Assembly: GCA_002162675.1 (NCBI GenBank)
Contig: MAAE01000037.1
Coordinates: forward strand, 62,001-126,000
Length of the DNA stretch: 64,000 bases
Source: Colwellia sp. 39_35_sub15_T18
GTDB taxonomy: Bacteria; Pseudomonadota; Gammaproteobacteria; Enterobacterales; Alteromonadaceae
Direction of reading: 5' to 3'
The first letter of the stretch is position 1, and each line of letters opens with the position of its first letter. Of the stretch, positions 2,711 through 49,052 are shown one piece after another. Made by a program: the position numbers and the translations under genes. The notes below the pieces were generated by a model, which ran no database searches, was not told the origin of the DNA, and worked only from the letters and a program-made list of their open reading frames with translations.

Positions 2711-2840
2711 CGTGGTGAGGCAAGATTACTTCGTACATCCTGTACTTCGCCCTTCGGGCCGCACTGCGTGCGTTCAAAATCGTTCCCGACGATTTTGTCG
2801 AACTTGCGACTGAACTTGATGACACCCAAACCAATGATTG
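2711..2840 (-). pseudogene. tRNA-Pro remnant A with 70-nt insert in the T-loop
   Basis: Read on the minus strand, the 3' part matches tRNA-Pro (acceptor/T-stem bases at 2716-2727). A 70-nt insert at 2728-2797 follows, then the other half of the T-arm and a decayed anticodon region (TCGAACTTGCGAC at 2798-2810, CCCAAACCAA near 2825-2834). The insert holds several short hairpins: GTAC..GTAC, GCCC TTC GGGC, GCAC TGC GTGC and AATCGT TCCCG ACGATT. It cannot fold as a functional tRNA. The same insert recurs in copies B and C. Confidence 0.75.
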
Positions 2841-2868
2841 GTGCTTTAAAAGAATAAAAAAGAAAAAG

Positions 2869-2975
2869 TGGTCGGTGATGCAAGATTACTATGTACATCC
2901 TGTACTTCGCCCTTCGGGTCGCACTGCGTGCGTTCAAAATCGTTCCCGACGCTTTTGTCGAATTGCTTCGCAAGT
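2869..2975 (-). pseudogene. tRNA-Pro remnant B with the same 70-nt insert
   Basis: It begins with the tRNA-Pro 3' end (GGTCGGTGATGCAAGATT at 2870-2887 on the plus strand). The insert occupies 2888-2957 and differs from copy A by only a few bases. After the insert, TCGAATTGCTTCGCAAGTTC shows a rearranged T-arm and no anticodon arm remains. It is clearly homologous to copies A and C. Confidence 0.75.
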
Positions 2976-3031
2976 TCTCGTGCCCAATATAGTTTTGTTT
3001 TGTGCTGAGATTATTGAGAAAGTAAAGAAAG

Positions 3032-3145
3032 TAGTCGGTGATGCAAGATTACTATGTACATCCTGTACTTCGCCCTTCAGGTCGCACTGCGTACGTTCAA
3101 AATCGTTCCCGACGCTTTTGTCGAATTGCTTCGCAAGTTCTTGCG
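3032..3145 (-). pseudogene. tRNA-Pro remnant C with the same 70-nt insert
   Basis: Third copy: the tRNA-Pro 3' end (GTCGGTGATGCAAGATT) ends at 3050, the insert spans 3051-3120, and TCGAATTGCTTCGCAAGTTC follows as in copy B. The insert has one change in the GCCCTTCGGG hairpin (CTTCAGG) and one in the next (GTACG), so these hairpins are not being kept intact. It lies 48 bp downstream, in the direction of transcription, of the intact tRNA-Pro at 3194-3270. Confidence 0.75.
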
Positions 3146-30115: not shown

Positions 30116-33100
30116 TTACAAATTATCTAATAAGTCCTGAGCTTCGAGTTGTTGTTGGTTATTACCCTGTTTGATAATTTCTTGCAAAATAACCTGTGCG
30201 TTATCTTGATCGCCAATTTCTACATAGACTTTAGCCAAATCAAGCTTAGCAGCCATACCGTTTTCATCATCATCAACATCAATGGGGTTCACATCATCAG
30301 TAAACTCTGGATACTCATTTAAACCAACATCAATATTAGCTTCATTGTAGGGTTCATCTAAGGTTTTTTCGTCTAAACTTGCTGACAATAAAGAGTCGAC
30401 AGAAACAAAGTCTTGTTCCTTATCATCACTATCTTCAGCATCAACAGCGCCTAAACCGCTATTAGGATCATCAAAATCATCTAATGAAATCGGGGAGTCA
30501 AAGTCATCACTTTGATTAAAGTCAGCGGGTTGATTAGTGACACTTGATTCTTCTTCAATGTTAGCTAATAACTCATCAAATTCTAAGTTGTCTAACTCTT
30601 GAATATCATTTATTTCTGTCGCTTCTGAAATAGTATGGTCATTACTTTCATCACTATCGTTCAGTAAATCAGCCAAGACATTTTGATCAGAAAAATCAGG
30701 GGTTAGCTCAATAGTTTGCTCAGCAGCTTTATCATTTAATAATTCAGCAAGCGTCTCTTCATCAAATGCACCCGATTGCTCATCGGCTAAATCATCACCA
30801 ATATCAAGTGGCTCTTCTTGAGCTGATTGTGATAATTTTTCTTTTGCACTTTCATTTTCAACATCAGCAATAAGTGCGTCAATATCAAACTCTTCCTCTG
30901 CAGTTTCCTCACTAGCTATATCATCCTCTTCAGCAATAACAGCATTGTTATCTGCAGCGTCATTGATAATATCACTAAAGTCCACGGCTAAAAGTGGCGC
31001 AACATACTCTTCCGTCAAGTTTTCTATTTTTGCTTTATTTACGTTTTCTTCATCGGTAGCAATATTATCTGCTGCTTGCTCAGTTTCTGCAACAGCCATT
31101 GAGTCAGGTATGTCATCCGTTGCTGCTGAATCGATACTTTCGTTGGTTGTAGATTCACCTGTGCCCATTGATTCAAGTAAAGCATCAATGTCATCGGGAT
31201 CGGTGATTTCGGCTTGTCCATTTTCGCTGTCAGCGTCTGGTTCTTTTTCTGCCGAAGGTTTTTCATCCGCTGATGGCTCTTCAATAGCCATTGCATCAAG
31301 TAAAGCATCGATATCATCGGGATCGGTGATTTCTGCTTGTCCATCGTCGCTTTCAGCGTCTGGTTCTTTCTCTGCTGAAGGCTCTTCAATATCTAAGGAA
31401 TCAAGTAAGGCGTCAATATCATCGGGATCGGTGATTTCTGCTTGTCCATCGTCGCTTTCAGCGTCTGGCTCTTTCTGTGCTGAGGGCTCTTCAATATCTA
31501 AGGAATCAAGTAAGGCGTCAATATCATCGGGATCGGTGATTTCTGCTTGCCCGTCGTCGCTTTCAGCGTCTGGTTTTTCATCCGCCGAAGGCTCGTCAAC
31601 AGCCATTGAATCAAGTAAGGCGTCAATGTCATCGGGATCGGTAATTTCGGCTTGCGCTTCTTCGCTTTCAGCGTCTGGTTCTTTCTCTGCCGAAGGCTTT
31701 TCATCTGCCGAAGGCTCGTCAACAGCCATTGAATCAAGTAAGGCGTCAATGTCATCGGGATCGGTGATTTCGGCTTGTCCATCGTCGCTTTCAGCGTCTG
31801 GTTTTTCATCCGCCGAAGGCTCTTTCTCTGCCGAAGGCTCTTCAATATCCATTGAGTCAAGTAAGGCGTCAATATCATCGGGATCGGTGATTTCGGCTTG
31901 TCCATCGTCGCTTTCAGCGTCTGGTTTTTCATCCGCCGATGGCTCTTTCTCTGCCGAAGGCTCTTCAATATCCATTGAGTCAAGTAAGGCGTCAATATCA
32001 TCGGGATCGGTGATTTCGGCTTGTCCATCGTCGCTTTCAGTATCGGTCTCAGTTGATAATTCTTCTTCAATAATTTCTGCAGGTTCACCATCAACATCAG
32101 CTAAAACATCATCAATATTAATTTCTTCTTCTGCTGAAGGCTCTGTTTCTGCTGAAGGCTCTGTTTCTGCTGAAGGCTCTTCAACAGAAAGCTCTTCATC
32201 AAGGCTTCCTAATAAATCATCAAGATCATTTTGATCAAGCTGATTATCTTCAAGCGCTTCTTCTTCTGCCTCTTTTTCTTCTGAAAGAGCTTCATCTTCA
32301 ACTTCAGGCTTGTCTAATAAAGAATCTAAATCACTTTGATCTAACTCATCATTAGCTTTTTCTTCAAGATCACTGTCATCATCGAGTAAGATATCCTCCA
32401 AATCATCAAGATCGTCTAACTCATCATTGTCGTCATCATCTAAATGGATAGCATCATCTTCAGCAGCACTGTCGTCTGTTTCCAGTAATTCAACCGATAA
32501 GTCATCATCAAGTGAGAGTTCATCGTCTAACGACAACTCGTCATCAAGCGATAAGTCATCGGCGATATCTGTTTCTTCAAGCTCATTTTCTGTTATTTTT
32601 TCAGGCTCTTTTTTAGATTTTTTTGCTGGTTTTTCTTTTGTTGACGCTGGTTCAGCTTTTCGGCGTTTAAAAATCAGCGCCACAACAATAAGAATGAGAA
32701 TAGCAGGCAATGTCGCCATCAAAACAATAAACCATAAGCTTGAAAAAATATTACCCTTTTCTAGTTCCGCTTGCTGCTTCTCTAATAATAACTCTTGCTC
32801 TCGTGCCTGTGCTTTGGCCAGTAACGCTTGCTGCAAGGTGATCATATCGTTCATTTGCAGTTTAATTTCTTTGCTTTTTGCCACCTCTTTTTGCATGGTG
32901 TTGAGTTGATTATTAAATGTCGATAAACGTTGGCGTAGCGCTTCATTTTCTTTCAATATCGCTTGTAAACCATCAATAGAGTCTAAAACATCATTTTGTA
33001 TACTTTCTAATCGCTGCTGTTGCTCTGTGTCTATTTTTTGTAGTTGATTGTTAATTTCAACTTTAACCGTGTCTAAGTCTTTTTTATTAGCAACAGGCTC

Positions 33101-44097: not shown

Positions 44098-45417
44098 TTA
44101 CTTATAGCGAACCTTGCTCGCTTTTGAGCGATGACTTTTTGCTAACATCTTCTGGTGATTTTGTTTTCGGCTTGTGTTGTGCCGCTGCTTTTTCACCGGT
44201 GTATTGCCGCGTTTAGCATTATGTTTATTCACACTTTTTTTATACGTTTTCGCTCTCATTTGCTGCGAACTTGCCTTTGCCATGTTTGCCTTTTGCACGT
44301 TAACATTCTTTTTCACATTAACATTAGTGCGATACTGCTTTTTAGGGCTAAGCTCTTTAGTTCGATACGTTTTACCTCTAAGTTCTTTAGCTCTATGCTC
44401 TTTAGGCCTAACATTGGCTGAATACCGTTTAATAGCGGGCTTAGTATGCATTTTACTTTGCTTACCAAAGTGCAGCGACTTATTGCTGTTATGAGCTTTT
44501 ACTCTATTGCTATGGTATTTTTTACTGGTATGCTTGCTTCGATAAGCAACGCCTTTTCTATGCGCTGGCTGGTGCGCCCAACGCTTAGCATAACCACCGT
44601 GGGCGATTAAATGACGCGGACGTTGATGATAATAACGGTGATGAGCACGGTACGGATTAACCACAACAACATGGCGATTATGCCAATGAAAAGCACTGAA
44701 AAAATAGTTGAACGAAATGTGAATACCCGAATGCCAATAAAAAGGGTTGTGGTGGCTCACATAAACGCTGCGATAAGGTCGCCAATACACAGGCGGATAT
44801 GACGACCAATGCCAAGCACCATATATCATGCGTGTATCATAATAAGGTACATAAACTATTTCTTTTTCACGTGCTTCAATAATGATATTGCTGCCTTCAT
44901 AGCTGACAGCCATGTTGCCCATTTTATCAAGATTACCGGCAAGCTTGGCTTGCTCTCTAAGCGTTTGAATACTCTCTAACAGCCTTGCTTCATCTTGTAA
45001 AAAAGCATCGCCAAGTTGCTGTGTCCAACTTAAATCTTCACTTAGCCGGCTCAGAATCCGCTCAAACGGAATTAATGCTTTAACGCTAGCGTCCCAGTCA
45101 AAGTTTTTTACCGACTGAGCTGCTTGCTCAGAATTAAGTTTTTCATGCTTTTTAAGCCAACGATGAGCTTCTACAATTTCAATAGGGTAAGTTGCCGCAA
45201 TTAATATATGCGTTAATAAGCTATCGGGGTATAAAGCAATAGGGGCTAGCATTTGTGCTAGTTCAGCTTCGCTAAACAACTGTTTTTCTACCGACACTTG
45301 TTGCTGAGATTGTCGTTGAGGGGTTTGATCTTGTTGTGTAAACGCTTGTACTGAAACGACAGTAAAACTCATTAATGTCGTTACTACTAAGCTGAATAAA
45401 AAAATAAAGTTTTTCAT
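44098..45417 (-). CDS. DUF3300-family exported protein with a very basic His/Lys/Arg-rich tail
   Basis: ATG 45417 behind AAGGAT gives a signal peptide (MKNFIFLFSLVVTTLM, cleavage near VQA). Residues about 40-200 form the DUF3300 core (AELAQMLAPIALYPDSLLTHILIAATYP, EAHRWLKKH, VYVPYYDTRMIYGAW). After residue 200 comes an aromatic/His-rich stretch (WRPYRSVYVSHHNPFYWHSG) and a 180-residue tail almost wholly of Lys, Arg, His, Asn and Ser. The cellular role is not established. The promoter region holds seven tandem 11-bp PhoP-box-like half-sites, so it is probably controlled by the two-component system directly upstream. Confidence 0.85.
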   Translation of the reverse strand: MKNFIFLFSLVVTTLMSFTVVSVQAFTQQDQTPQRQSQQQVSVEKQLFSEAELAQMLAPIALYPDSLLTHILIAATYPIEIVEAHRWLKKHEKLNSEQAAQSVKNFDWDASVKALIPFERILSRLSEDLSWTQQLGDAFLQDEARLLESIQTLREQAKLAGNLDKMGNMAVSYEGSNIIIEAREKEIVYVPYYDTRMIYGAWHWSSYPPVYWRPYRSVYVSHHNPFYWHSGIHISFNYFFSAFHWHNRHVVVVNPYRAHHRYYHQRPRHLIAHGGYAKRWAHQPAHRKGVAYRSKHTSKKYHSNRVKAHNSNKSLHFGKQSKMHTKPAIKRYSANVRPKEHRAKELRGKTYRTKELSPKKQYRTNVNVKKNVNVQKANMAKASSQQMRAKTYKKSVNKHNAKRGNTPVKKQRHNTSRKQNHQKMLAKSHRSKASKVRYK

Positions 45418-45450: not shown

Positions 45451-45539
45451 AGAATAACAACACTAAACTGAACATAGCCTGAACATGACCTAAACATAGA
45501 CTGAACGTGCCCTAAACATAGCCGAACATGCCCTAAAAA
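45451..45539 (-). promoter_or_regulatory. Array of seven 11-bp-spaced PhoP-box-like half-sites before the DUF3300 gene
   Basis: Plus-strand half-sites CTGAACA or variants begin at 45468, 45479, 45490, 45501, 45512, 45522 and 45533, i.e. TGTTCAG/TGTTTAG on the minus strand. Spacing is 11 bp, with one step of 10. The classical PhoP box is two TGTTTA half-sites with 11-bp period, ending about 12 bp before the -10. Here the last half-site ends 11 bp before a TATTCT (45451-45456). The array occupies most of the gap to the kinase gene. Confidence 0.75.
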
Positions 45540-45615: not shown

Positions 45616-46968
45616 TTAGCTAGAAAAGTCAAAAACGATGGTAAAACAAGCCCCCGGCAGTGTTGCTGACTTATCAATAGCTGGTTTATCAACGAATAGC
45701 TGCCCTTGGTAACTAGCGACCAAATCACTGACAATGGCTAAACCAATACCATGGCCTGCTTGGTAAGTATCAGCTCGACCTCCCCGAGAAAGAATAATAG
45801 CTTGTTGTGACTCATCTAACCCTGCACCATCATCAGTAATTTCAATGGTTAGTTTTTTAGCTGTGCTAGCAACATTGACCGCAACTTTGTGTTTAGCGGC
45901 TTTACAGGCGTTGTCTAAAACATTGCCTAAAATCTCCATTAAATCAGTTTCATCACCTTTAAAAATAGCATTTGAGTCAACATCAATAATGAAAGCCAAA
46001 TCCTTATCTTGGTAGATTTTAGCTAAAGTGATAAGTAATTTATCAATAACTTGTTGTACCTGAACACCTAAATGCCATGGTGACTGCCCGGCACTTTGCG
46101 CTCTTTTTAGCTGATGCTCAATGATCTGATTTATTAACTGTAACTGCTCACTCGCGCTAACCGAAATATCTGTCTGACTTTGAATAACTGCCAAAGGATT
46201 TTTCAGACTGTGAGCGAGATCAGATAAAGCATTACGATAACGTGTACGCTGATTTTCTTCTGTCATCAATAATATATTTAATTGCTGAGTTACCTGTTGT
46301 AATTCAAGCGGATATTTAGCAGTTAATGCTTTCTTTTGACCTTTCTCTATATTCTCAAGCTCGTCAGTTAATACGGTTAACGGCTTTAATGTCCATAATA
46401 ACCAGATAATTTGCACAAAAATAAACACCGCCATCAATGCCAATAACCATGTCCAAAGCTGCTGTCTAAAATCACTGAGCGCACTTAAGAGTTGTTGCTG
46501 ATCTTTAATAAGATGAAGGGTGATAGGAAAAGCTTGGCCATTATCAGAAAAACTAGCACTAAAGCTATAAAGTAAATGACGACTACCAGCGAGATTGATT
46601 TTTGAAAATTGAGTTTGCCCAACATCAGGCGATGGTAACAAGGCCGGTAAGGCTAAAGTGAGTAAAGATGGTGATTGCCACAGTGGTATATTTTTTTGTG
46701 GCGCTTGAGACAAAGATGTAATAACTGCATATAAACCTGACTTACTGACATTAAACTGATTTTCTAATAAAAAATTCGGCATTAATAACTGTTTATTCTC
46801 AACTTCGGCAACGGTAAAAATTGAATAGCTATAAGCTTTCAACTCATTTTTTACCGCTTGGCTTAATTGCCGCTCAAAGGCATTACTTAAGGTTAAACCT
46901 ATGATAGGCAACATCACTACTGTCATAATAAATGTACTTAATAATAACCTTACTTTTAAGGAATTCAT
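45616..46968 (-). CDS. PhoQ-like sensor histidine kinase
   Basis: 450 residues. First membrane segment near 8-28 (LLLSTFIMTVVMLPIIGLTL), a periplasmic domain of about 135 residues, second membrane segment near 165-190 (WLLALMAVFIFVQIIWLLW), HAMP-like linker, HisKA with the phospho-acceptor in ALSDLAHSLKNPLAVIQSQ, then the ATPase with GNVLDNACKAAKH, ITDDGAGLD and AGHGIGLAIVSDL. The DLAHSLKNPLA box is that of PhoQ-type kinases. Its start overlaps the regulator stop by 4 bp (ATGA), so the two are made together. Confidence 0.92.
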   Translation of the reverse strand: MNSLKVRLLLSTFIMTVVMLPIIGLTLSNAFERQLSQAVKNELKAYSYSIFTVAEVENKQLLMPNFLLENQFNVSKSGLYAVITSLSQAPQKNIPLWQSPSLLTLALPALLPSPDVGQTQFSKINLAGSRHLLYSFSASFSDNGQAFPITLHLIKDQQQLLSALSDFRQQLWTWLLALMAVFIFVQIIWLLWTLKPLTVLTDELENIEKGQKKALTAKYPLELQQVTQQLNILLMTEENQRTRYRNALSDLAHSLKNPLAVIQSQTDISVSASEQLQLINQIIEHQLKRAQSAGQSPWHLGVQVQQVIDKLLITLAKIYQDKDLAFIIDVDSNAIFKGDETDLMEILGNVLDNACKAAKHKVAVNVASTAKKLTIEITDDGAGLDESQQAIILSRGGRADTYQAGHGIGLAIVSDLVASYQGQLFVDKPAIDKSATLPGACFTIVFDFSS

Positions 46969-47645
46969 CCGCTATTCAGTCGCTTTAATTTATAACCATG
47001 ACCACGCAATGTTTCAATAAAATCGTATTCATTATTGGGGTCTAGTTTTTTTCTTAAACGCCGAATAAAAACTTCAATAACATTCGAGTCAAGATCAAAG
47101 TCTTGATCATAAATATGCTCAGTTAACGTCGCTTTTGAGGTAACTTCGTCAAGATGATGCATCATGTACTCAAGTAACTTATATTCAGAGCTGCTAAGTT
47201 TTATTGTTTGATTATTTACCTCAACTTGTAGGCTTTTGGTATTAAGCGTTAACAAGCCATTCTTTATTAGTGGACTTGCTTGCCCTGCCGAACGCCTAAT
47301 GAGTGCATTTAAGCGAGCCAGTAATTCTTCGGCTTGAAAAGGTTTAGTTAAATAATCATCAGCGCCTGCATCTAAACCAGCAACCTTATCCTGCCAGCTA
47401 TTTCTTGCTGTTAACACTAGAATAGGAAAGTCGATATTTTTCTCACGTAACAACCTAATAACACTGATACCGTCAATAATAGGTAAACCGACATCAATAA
47501 TAGCCGCATCATACGGGTATTCTTGTCCTTGAAATAAACCTGTTTCACCGTCACTGGCTAAGTCCACTAAATAATTAGCCCCGAGTAAGTGCTTGTGTAA
47601 GTTTTGCTGTAAAGCGAGATCATCCTCAATGAGTAACAAGCGCAT
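46965..47645 (-). CDS. PhoP-like OmpR-family response regulator
   Basis: 226 residues. The receiver domain has acidic pocket LIEDD, acceptor Asp in AAIIDVGLPIIDG near residue 51 and Lys in DDYLTKPFQAEELLARL. The C-terminal winged helix (SSEYKLLEYMMHHLDEVTSKATLTEHIYDQDFDLDSNVIEVFIRRLRKKL, GHGYKL) is of PhoP type. It is 2 bp downstream of the PepSY gene. TGTTCAG-like direct repeats before its operon and before two neighbouring genes are the presumed binding sites. Confidence 0.94.
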   Translation of the reverse strand: MRLLLIEDDLALQQNLHKHLLGANYLVDLASDGETGLFQGQEYPYDAAIIDVGLPIIDGISVIRLLREKNIDFPILVLTARNSWQDKVAGLDAGADDYLTKPFQAEELLARLNALIRRSAGQASPLIKNGLLTLNTKSLQVEVNNQTIKLSSSEYKLLEYMMHHLDEVTSKATLTEHIYDQDFDLDSNVIEVFIRRLRKKLDPNNEYDFIETLRGHGYKLKRLNSG

Positions 47646-47647
47646 AA

Positions 47648-47959
47648 TTATTGACCTCCACTAATTCGGCCTGTTTTAGCATCAACATAAACCGACACTA
47701 TATGACCATCGGTTTTAATGAGCTTAACCCGATAACCTGATTTTTTCTTTTGCACTTTAAGCACTTTGCCGCCATAACGACCTTTAGCCATTTGAGCGGC
47801 TTGTTTACCGCTTCTAACACTCAGTTGTGGTTTAGCATTCTGCTTAGCTTGTTGATTACTTTTAATGGTATTGCTGGCAGAGAAAAAGCTTCCTTGAGCA
47901 ATAGTACTCATAGAAACCGTGATGGCAAAAATAAAAATCAAAGATAAAGCAAGTTTCAT
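47648..47959 (-). CDS. Small periplasmic PepSY-domain protein
   Basis: 103 residues with a signal peptide (MKLALSLIFIFAITVSMSTIAQG). The mature part has a single PepSY-like domain: SGKQAAQMAKGRYGGKVLKVQKKKSGYRVKLIKTDGHIVSVYVDAKTGRISGGQ. PepSY domains are often found at sensor-kinase loci and are thought to inhibit or sense proteolysis in the periplasm. As first gene of the PepSY-regulator-kinase operon it may tune the kinase. No enzyme activity is expected. Confidence 0.88.
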   Translation of the reverse strand: MKLALSLIFIFAITVSMSTIAQGSFFSASNTIKSNQQAKQNAKPQLSVRSGKQAAQMAKGRYGGKVLKVQKKKSGYRVKLIKTDGHIVSVYVDAKTGRISGGQ

Positions 47960-48012: not shown

Positions 48013-48058
48013 AATCATAGCCCTTCGCAACTGAATATAAGCTGAACATGGTTGAATA
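48013..48058 (-). promoter_or_regulatory. Autoregulatory PhoP-box-like site of the PepSY-regulator-kinase operon
   Basis: Plus-strand CTGAATA (48031), CTGAACA (48042) and TTGAATA (48052) form three half-sites with steps of 11 and 10 bp, pointing towards the operon on the minus strand. A -10 box TATGAT (minus strand, 48014-48019) follows after 11 bp, the same geometry as at 45451-45539. Confidence 0.65.
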
Positions 48059-48075: not shown

Positions 48076-48111
48076 TGTTCAGCTTGCATTCATCTTGACT
48101 GCGCTTTAATA
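48076..48111 (+). promoter_or_regulatory. PhoP-box-like site before the anchored surface-type protein gene
   Basis: TGTTCAG (48076) is followed 11 bp later by CATTCAT (48087), then after 12 bp by a possible -10 TTAATA (48106-48111). The orientation is towards the plus-strand gene at 48144. The second half-site is degenerate, so this is the weakest of the three sites. Confidence 0.5.
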
Positions 48112-48143: not shown

Positions 48144-49052
48144 ATGTTCAAAACCAATAACAATGCCAGCACAACCAACCTAAGCTCACTGAAAAAACTA
48201 TTGCTAGTATGCACTGTGTGTTTACTTGCCTTTACTGATCTTATTACCAACGAACTTGCTGCTAACGAGCTTACTGCCAACGAAATTGCTGCCAGTAAAT
48301 TAACAAGCAAGCAATATTCAGTTTCACAAGGCATGACTAAAAAAGATTTAAACGAACAACAACGCCAGATAATTATCGAGGCAAATAAACAGACCGAAGT
48401 ACCCGATCAACTTAACGGTAAAGCAACAACAAAAACAAGAGTGGTAATGTTAGCGAGTCAAAATAAAATAATCAAAAGCGCAAAGAATGCCTCAGCTGTT
48501 CAACGTGACAGTCAGTTAAGTTTGAGGCAATTAACTTTAAACCGAGATTATTATGCTGATTTTACTATTTATAATGCCGCAAGTTTTTTACTAAACGATT
48601 ATGACGGTGATGGTTTTTACCAAACCTTTAGTGTTACTTTTGATGCTGATATTTATAGTGATAATCAATTCGGTGAAGTGTATGCCCTATTGTATATCAG
48701 CAAAAATGGCGGGCCTTGGAGTCACTACTTTACCACCGATAGTTTTATTATTGAGGGTGATACGGATTTAGATGAATATGAAGTGATTACGACTTTTTTA
48801 TCTGGCTATGCCAGTGATCATTACGATGTATTAATAGACTTATATCAAGTGGGCTATAGCGATGTTGTCGCAACTTACAGCTCAGATGATAGTAATGCCT
48901 TATACGCCCTTCCCTTAGAAAGCGCAGACTACGATGAGCCTTATGTTGAAGTGGTTACGGTTAGCGAAGGCGGTAGCATGTCGATGCTAATACTGTTTTT
49001 ACTAGGCACTTTACTTATCCGCTTTAAAAGCAGAATGCTTCAAGCTCAATAA
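48144..49052 (+). CDS. Exported protein with a GlyGly-CTERM-like C-terminal anchor (choice-of-anchor type)
   Basis: 302 residues. A signal peptide (LKKLLLVCTVCLLAF) is followed by a short degenerate repeat (NELAANELTANEIAA). The central part resembles choice-of-anchor H proteins: YYADFTIYNAASFLLNDYDGDGFYQTFSVTFDADIY, Asp-rich and likely beta-sheet. The C-terminus has a Gly-Gly-Ser motif (EGGSMS), a hydrophobic helix (MLILFLLGTLLI) and a basic end (RFKSRM). That is the layout cleaved by rhombosortase-type proteases; none is in the window. Divergent from the PepSY operon and possibly part of its regulon. Confidence 0.78.
   Translation: MFKTNNNASTTNLSSLKKLLLVCTVCLLAFTDLITNELAANELTANEIAASKLTSKQYSVSQGMTKKDLNEQQRQIIIEANKQTEVPDQLNGKATTKTRVVMLASQNKIIKSAKNASAVQRDSQLSLRQLTLNRDYYADFTIYNAASFLLNDYDGDGFYQTFSVTFDADIYSDNQFGEVYALLYISKNGGPWSHYFTTDSFIIEGDTDLDEYEVITTFLSGYASDHYDVLIDLYQVGYSDVVATYSSDDSNALYALPLESADYDEPYVEVVTVSEGGSMSMLILFLLGTLLIRFKSRMLQAQ

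Follow-up and report, generated by a model that had tools for sequence, protein, structure and literature searches.

A multi-repeat array of PhoP-box-like half-sites at the DUF3300 promoter of a Colwellia genome, a candidate operator of the adjacent PepSY-linked two-component system

The window analyzed here is a whole stretch of 64,000 nucleotides from the genome of Colwellia sp. 39_35_sub15_T18. On its minus strand, the genes of a small PepSY-domain protein, a response regulator (RR) and a histidine kinase (HK) are followed by an array of short direct repeats and then by a DUF3300 gene. The features of the locus, in window coordinates, are the following.

44098-45417, minus strand: DUF3300 gene, start codon ATG at 45417 (PF11737, E = 1.8e-86)
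45451-45456, minus strand: -10 hexamer TATTCT, 11 bp from the proximal half-site
45468-45485, minus strand: proximal half-site pair TGTTCAG-GCTA-TGTTCAG, predicted conserved core operator
45490-45518, minus strand: three further in-phase half-sites, TGTTTAG (45490-45496), CGTTCAG (45501-45507) and TGTTTAG (45512-45518)
45522-45539, minus strand: two distal degenerate half-sites beyond a 10-bp step, TGTTCGG (45522-45528) and TTTTTAG (45533-45539)
45616-46968, minus strand: PhoQ-related sensor HK (family and model matches)
46965-47645, minus strand: RR of the OmpR/PhoB family, the proposed binder (PF00072, PF00486; tree)
47648-47959, minus strand: small PepSY-domain protein, first gene of the operon (PF03413)
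48014-48048, minus strand: box at the PepSY-RR-HK operon promoter, TGTTCAG (48042-48048) and TATTCAG (48031-48037), then 11 bp and TATGAT (48014-48019)
48076-48110, plus strand: similar box at the divergent promoter, TGTTCAG (48076-48082) and CATTCAT (48087-48093), then 11 bp and TTTAAT (48105-48110)
48144-49052, plus strand: gene of a choice-of-anchor H family protein, divergent from the PepSY gene (NF038116, 139 bits, cut-off 53)

The RR, made up of a receiver and a winged-helix DNA-binding domain, exceeds the cut-offs of both PF00072 and PF00486 and thus belongs to the OmpR/PhoB family. It is 41% identical to Escherichia coli PhoP and scores 192 bits against the NCBIfam PhoP equivalog, below the cut-off of 336. 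PhoQ is the best model match of the HK, far under the cut-off of the NCBIfam equivalog (204 versus 497 bits); the alignment covers residues 169-446, leaving out the sensor part, and no Pfam sensor-domain family was found in the HK at E up to 0.01. In the RR tree, the regulators of Colwelliaceae and Shewanellaceae group beside the PhoP clade and not inside it; their placement as a sister lineage of PhoP is only a lead, because the program flags long branches. The first-pass annotation had described a PhoP/PhoQ-like pair next to the array. The likeness and the neighborhood hold, whereas the RR does not fall within PhoP itself.

A small PepSY gene beside RR and HK genes is also the layout of the Vibrio cholerae DbfQRS system, an operon of PepSY protein, RR and HK with a kinase often annotated as phoQ and signs of positive autoregulation (PMC12714742, PMC7768729). 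DbfQRS is activated by outer-membrane perturbation (PMC12714742). The term "binding site" is absent from the main text of that paper, so there is no DbfQRS box to compare. In the tree, which includes no V. cholerae sequence and in which long branches meet, the window RR is nearer to PhoP and apart from the DbfR-like loci L245 and L247. The former (genome G422, of a distant family) has the order PepSY-like gene, RR, HK beside a separate PhoPQ-like pair (L246), and is preceded by ATTCAC-N4-TGTTCAT, 11 bp and TATACT (10 of 14 letters), a possible DbfR-type box. The function of DUF3300 is given by Pfam as not known. In E. coli, yacH, which encodes a DUF3300 protein, is reported to be under the control of CpxR and linked to the protamine response (PMC9600279); taken with the outer-membrane response of DbfQRS, this makes an envelope-stress role here only a guess.

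Direct reading of the minus strand confirmed the seven half-sites that had been claimed at the DUF3300 promoter, starting at 45468, 45479, 45490, 45501, 45512, 45522 and 45533, as well as the single exception to the 11-bp step (steps of 11, 11, 11, 11, 10 and 11 bp) and the TATTCT 11 bp past the last half-site (45456-45451). From proximal to distal they read TGTTCAG, TGTTCAG, TGTTTAG, CGTTCAG, TGTTTAG, TGTTCGG and TTTTTAG; the proposed form TGTTCAG/TGTTTAG is therefore exact (TGTTYAG) in four of the seven, and the other three deviate from it. Scored in the same order with a matrix of 132 half-sites from relatives, they reach 13.1, 13.1, 4.3, 11.4, 4.3, 5.8 and not above 2 bits. Three of the half-sites are thus strong, three weak and one doubtful; five lie in strict 11-bp phase. 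Two of these five have T at position 5, where 99% of the matrix sites have C, a figure biased toward C by the selection of the sites for likeness to TGTTCAG.

Tandem Repeats Finder (TRF) detected the array with periods of 11 and 22, and its self-identity is 0.66 at a lag of 22 bp and 0.58 at 11 bp. By hand count, the copies differ at 4 of 49 core versus 3 of 28 spacer positions, so that in these few copies no difference in selection on core and spacer letters is visible. The array is not due to chance. Under a rule allowing at most one mismatch per heptamer and one 10-bp step, the longest chain of half-sites comprises seven units, against a maximum of three in 20,000 dinucleotide shuffles of the 197-bp intergenic region (two shuffles reach three) and two in the rest of the window. 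A motif search of the whole genome found three exact TGTTYA at 11-bp steps at one place, the array. Elsewhere in the window lie long tandem repeats with periods of 105 and 123 bp (31257-32040) and a repeat of 163 bp in 2.7 copies (2714-3141).

Three boxes of this kind are thus present in the window, at 45468-45485 and 48031-48048 on the minus strand and at 48076-48093 on the plus strand. The DUF3300 promoter has the arrangement of a PhoP-type activator site, a direct-repeat pair at a fixed distance before the -10 hexamer; the spacing and the position just before the -10 noted in the first-pass annotation are both supported. The strict PhoP box, (T/G)GTTTA-N5-(T/G)GTTTA, is matched in spacing and not in letters, the proximal pair being TGTTCA-N5-TGTTCA. 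TATTCT belongs to no -35/-10 match; one other such match was obtained. At two mismatches the box lacks specificity genome-wide (35 matches versus 18 in the backward control). At one mismatch, a further match lies at G000:C67:13595. A candidate fourth target, CGTTCAGTTAATGTTCAG at G000:C22:151999, was rejected, since both it and its counterpart in G030 lie inside coding sequence.

The box was followed through 39 genomes of the genus, the window genome included. At thresholds of E = 1e-10 for DUF3300 and 1e-60 for the RR, each is present in 37 of them; G009 and G034 lack both, and neither of these two has a dimer box at one mismatch. Such a box is also absent from G014 and G021, which possess the RR. 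Summed over the 39 genomes, one-mismatch matches number 99, versus 35 in the backward control. In one further locus (L091, G007:C4:208600-212300) the RR and DUF3300 genes are both degraded, with internal stops, as if lost together.

The DNA preceding the DUF3300 gene and that preceding the RR operon were examined in each of the 37 genomes that have them. A TGTTCAG-N4-TGTTCAG pair with at least 12 of 14 letters precedes 36 of the DUF3300 genes (11 letters in G007) and 33 of the operons (10-11 letters in G003, G014, G030 and G033). Among the promoters scored, TANNNT stands exactly 11 bp past the pair in 36 of 36 at DUF3300 and 31 of 33 at the operon, counts that omit the one DUF3300 and four operon promoters scoring below 12; the pairs were picked by likeness to TGTTCAG, with no part played by the spacing to the -10. 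Opposite the operon box, on the other strand, 32 of 37 genomes have a best pair with 11 or more matching letters, and TTTAAT stands 11 bp past it in 27 of them. Conservation of the box, its spacing and its co-occurrence with the system are, like the array itself, established by the sequences. The 11-bp phase, whose loss in relatives would have spoken against the first reading, is accordingly conserved for the proximal pair. The half-site is PhoP-box-like in spacing, while its common form in the genus is TGTTCAG and not TGTTTAG. Both the proposed target and the proposed regulator gain support, the latter from the box at its own promoter and from the joint absence of RR, DUF3300 and box in G009 and G034.

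We also compared the best 80 of at least 80 named DUF3300 loci, a set that partly overlaps with the genus genomes. An upstream box matching 11 or more of 14 letters is present in 24 of 26 loci linked to the RR or HK versus 13 of 54 unlinked ones; at 12 or more letters the counts are 14 of 26 versus 6 of 54, and promoters with a shuffle P no higher than 0.05 number 24 of 26 versus 17 of 54. Linked here means the RR or HK inside the fetched stretch, and the 54 unlinked loci include L158, with its RR just outside, and L166, at a contig end. Among the 18 of these 80 loci that were inspected more closely, the half-sites of Shewanella and Thalassotalea are somewhat different (TTTCAG, ATTCAG and TGTTCAT forms); 2 of 10 DUF3300 and 6 of 10 operon promoters of Shewanella match no better than shuffles do (P above 0.05). 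The DNA-binding-domain stretch EHIYDQDFDLDSNVIEVF(I/V)RRLRKK is identical in all 23 of the 25 RRs in which it was compared. A PepSY-containing two-component system that is a candidate sister of PhoP is found in Colwelliaceae and Shewanellaceae.

The number of half-sites is a different matter from the box. Counted outward from the pair, DUF3300 promoters carry two half-sites in 33 of 37 genomes and three in another three (G011, G017 and G019); a long array at DUF3300 occurs only in the window genome, where this loose rule gives eight. The sevenfold number is thus not conserved, and none of the 36 other DUF3300 promoters of the genus has as many extra in-phase half-sites as the three found here. 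Operon promoters carry two half-sites in 36 of 37 genomes and five in G024 (L078/L083, G024:C3:118994-119044). A third half-site above 3 bits lies 11 bp upstream of the pair in 2 of 34 DUF3300 and 1 of 31 operon promoters (0-1 at each of the other offsets); under a looser rule, an extension past the pair is seen in 4 of 37 and 1 of 37, respectively, and at 243 of 14,800 random positions. These counts vary with the rule, since still looser scoring adds a few promoters with a weak third half-site, and the genus promoters give little sign that relatives use a third half-site generally.

The G024 array matches itself best at a lag of 22 bp (0.76), as does that of the window genome, 22 bp being the length of one dimer site. 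This periodicity suggests that the arrays arose by tandem duplication of the dimer site, and the extra copies in the window genome look like a recent local duplication. In an even draw of 395 family genomes from a larger group, eight contain a run of four such half-sites with no more than two mismatches (11 matches versus 1 in the backward control). Only the window genome and G024 have them at the PepSY-RR-HK/DUF3300 system; the arrays of the other six genomes were rejected as parts of the system, their 3-kb stretches containing no tblastn match to RR, HK, PepSY or DUF3300. These 11-bp tandem repeats of TGTTTAG or TGTTCAG type outside the system are loci L237-L240, L074 and L075. At another locus, L079 (around G026:C12:4859), about nine copies of the 11-bp unit TTTTGTTTACC lie a short way upstream of a gene whose translation alone suggests a CadC/ToxR-type winged-helix regulator; here too an 11-bp array neighbors a gene for this kind of DNA-binding domain.

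Operators with many repeats are a known kind among OmpR-family regulators. The annotation knew of no described PhoP site with so many half-sites; arrays of three to six such repeats have, however, been published for ArcA (sites of two to five repeats) and for Streptomyces PhoP (six units). The Salmonella PhoP box is a hexanucleotide direct repeat, (T/G)GTTTA-N5-(T/G)GTTTA; some promoters have a second box, and an added upstream box enhanced a Salmonella promoter (PMC3335776). The system described here resembles that of Salmonella in the direct repeat of hexanucleotides with five nucleotides between, in the related RR and HK and in the proposed head-to-tail dimer; it differs in the mostly TGTTCA half-site, the PepSY gene in the operon and the contiguous array of as many as seven half-sites. 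In E. coli, ArcA sites comprise two to five direct repeats, mostly 11 bp from center to center, several of them bound cooperatively and some outer repeats only at higher concentration (PMC3798270). The array, in which at least three direct repeats follow one another at 11-bp steps and extend beyond the dimer site, is of this ArcA-like type; ArcA is a different regulator, with two to five repeats and acting mainly in repression (74 operons repressed and 11 activated; PMC3798270). An ArcA repeat at a 12-bp step was not protected (PMC3798270), and therefore the 10-bp step here may end the array. Streptomyces coelicolor PhoP binds four core and two weaker 11-nt units at pitH2, with a 64-nt footprint (PMC7866108). 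It is, unlike the window RR, a phosphate-starvation regulator of actinobacteria, and the likeness lies in the 11-nt direct repeats. Seven half-sites, five of them in strict phase, are at or just above the published range that we found. The literature searched, with most subscription journals outside its scope, showed no description of this regulon or its box, and none of the papers listed for tandem arrays of response-regulator sites was, by its listing, on the subject.

We consider it fairly probable that the array serves the neighboring PepSY-RR-HK system as an operator for the activation of DUF3300, the loading of extra half-sites included. An activator operator of the neighboring RR is the most likely assignment because the pair and its spacing are conserved, the operon promoter is alike and a box faces it on the divergent side. 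The rigid distance from the pair to the -10, the lack of a -35 match for TATTCT and the box at the system's own promoter fit activation with autoregulation. The phosphorylated RR would bind the two proximal TGTTCAG half-sites as a head-to-tail dimer, in the place of a -35, and recruit RNA polymerase to the -10 hexamer eleven bp downstream. This would presumably be class II activation. A like box would drive the PepSY-RR-HK operon, giving autoregulation, and probably also the divergent choice-of-anchor H gene. Duplication of the dimer site in 22-bp steps would have produced the five in-phase and two degenerate half-sites. Loading of extra RR dimers on the array is plausible; the regulator filament suggested in the first-pass annotation is a conjecture. 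The extra dimers would bind cooperatively next to the core dimer, at lower affinity, so that DUF3300 would be expressed at a weaker signal or to a higher level. By analogy with the other systems, two or more dimers could fit on the five in-phase units and sharpen or raise this expression. We infer RR binding, activation and the effect of the extra half-sites from the sequence comparisons given above.

The main and serious rival to a functional array is neutral repeat growth, in which only the proximal pair works and the upstream copies are a slippage expansion with no effect on expression. We regard this as a real possibility, if clearly the less probable one. It agrees with the occurrence of a long array in one of 37 DUF3300 promoters of the genus, with the 22-bp periodicity, with the weak scores of most extra copies and with the presence of similar 11-bp repeats elsewhere than at this system in 6 of the 395 family genomes. 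It does not lead one to expect a separate five-unit array within the same regulon, at the operon promoter of G024, or an extra unit scoring 11.4 bits; moreover, additional repeats are reported to be bound in other systems (PMC3798270, PMC7866108). It is improbable that another regulator, of the OmpR family or not, binds the array, or that it is a repressor site or a titrating decoy. Further OmpR-type regulators do use 11-bp direct repeats (PMC3798270, PMC7866108), and CpxR is the reported regulator of yacH (PMC9600279). Against this, the box recurs, equally far from the -10, at the operon promoter of the system itself and is absent where the RR is absent, and its position is activator-like. 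Chance or low-complexity sequence, for which the AT-rich intergenic region might speak, is negligible in view of the shuffles, none of which exceeds three half-sites, and of the single genomic occurrence of three exact repeats.

Under the preferred reading, a two-repeat site that relatives have as well, and that is probably bound by a PhoP-like regulator, has grown to about five to seven repeats at one gene. A more speculative and rather doubtful extension is that such operators are tunable, dimer sites of 22 bp having been added upstream of a fixed core separately at DUF3300 in this genome and at the operon in G024. If true, lineages could shift the gain or threshold of a response through repeat number. 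The locus provides a testable local regulon, in which the DUF3300 and operon promoters share one box, set at a fixed distance from the -10, and the divergent promoter has a box like it; it also links the DUF3300 family of unknown function to a two-component system. Promoters with two, three, five and seven half-sites form a natural series in which operator length can be compared with the response of an OmpR-family regulator.
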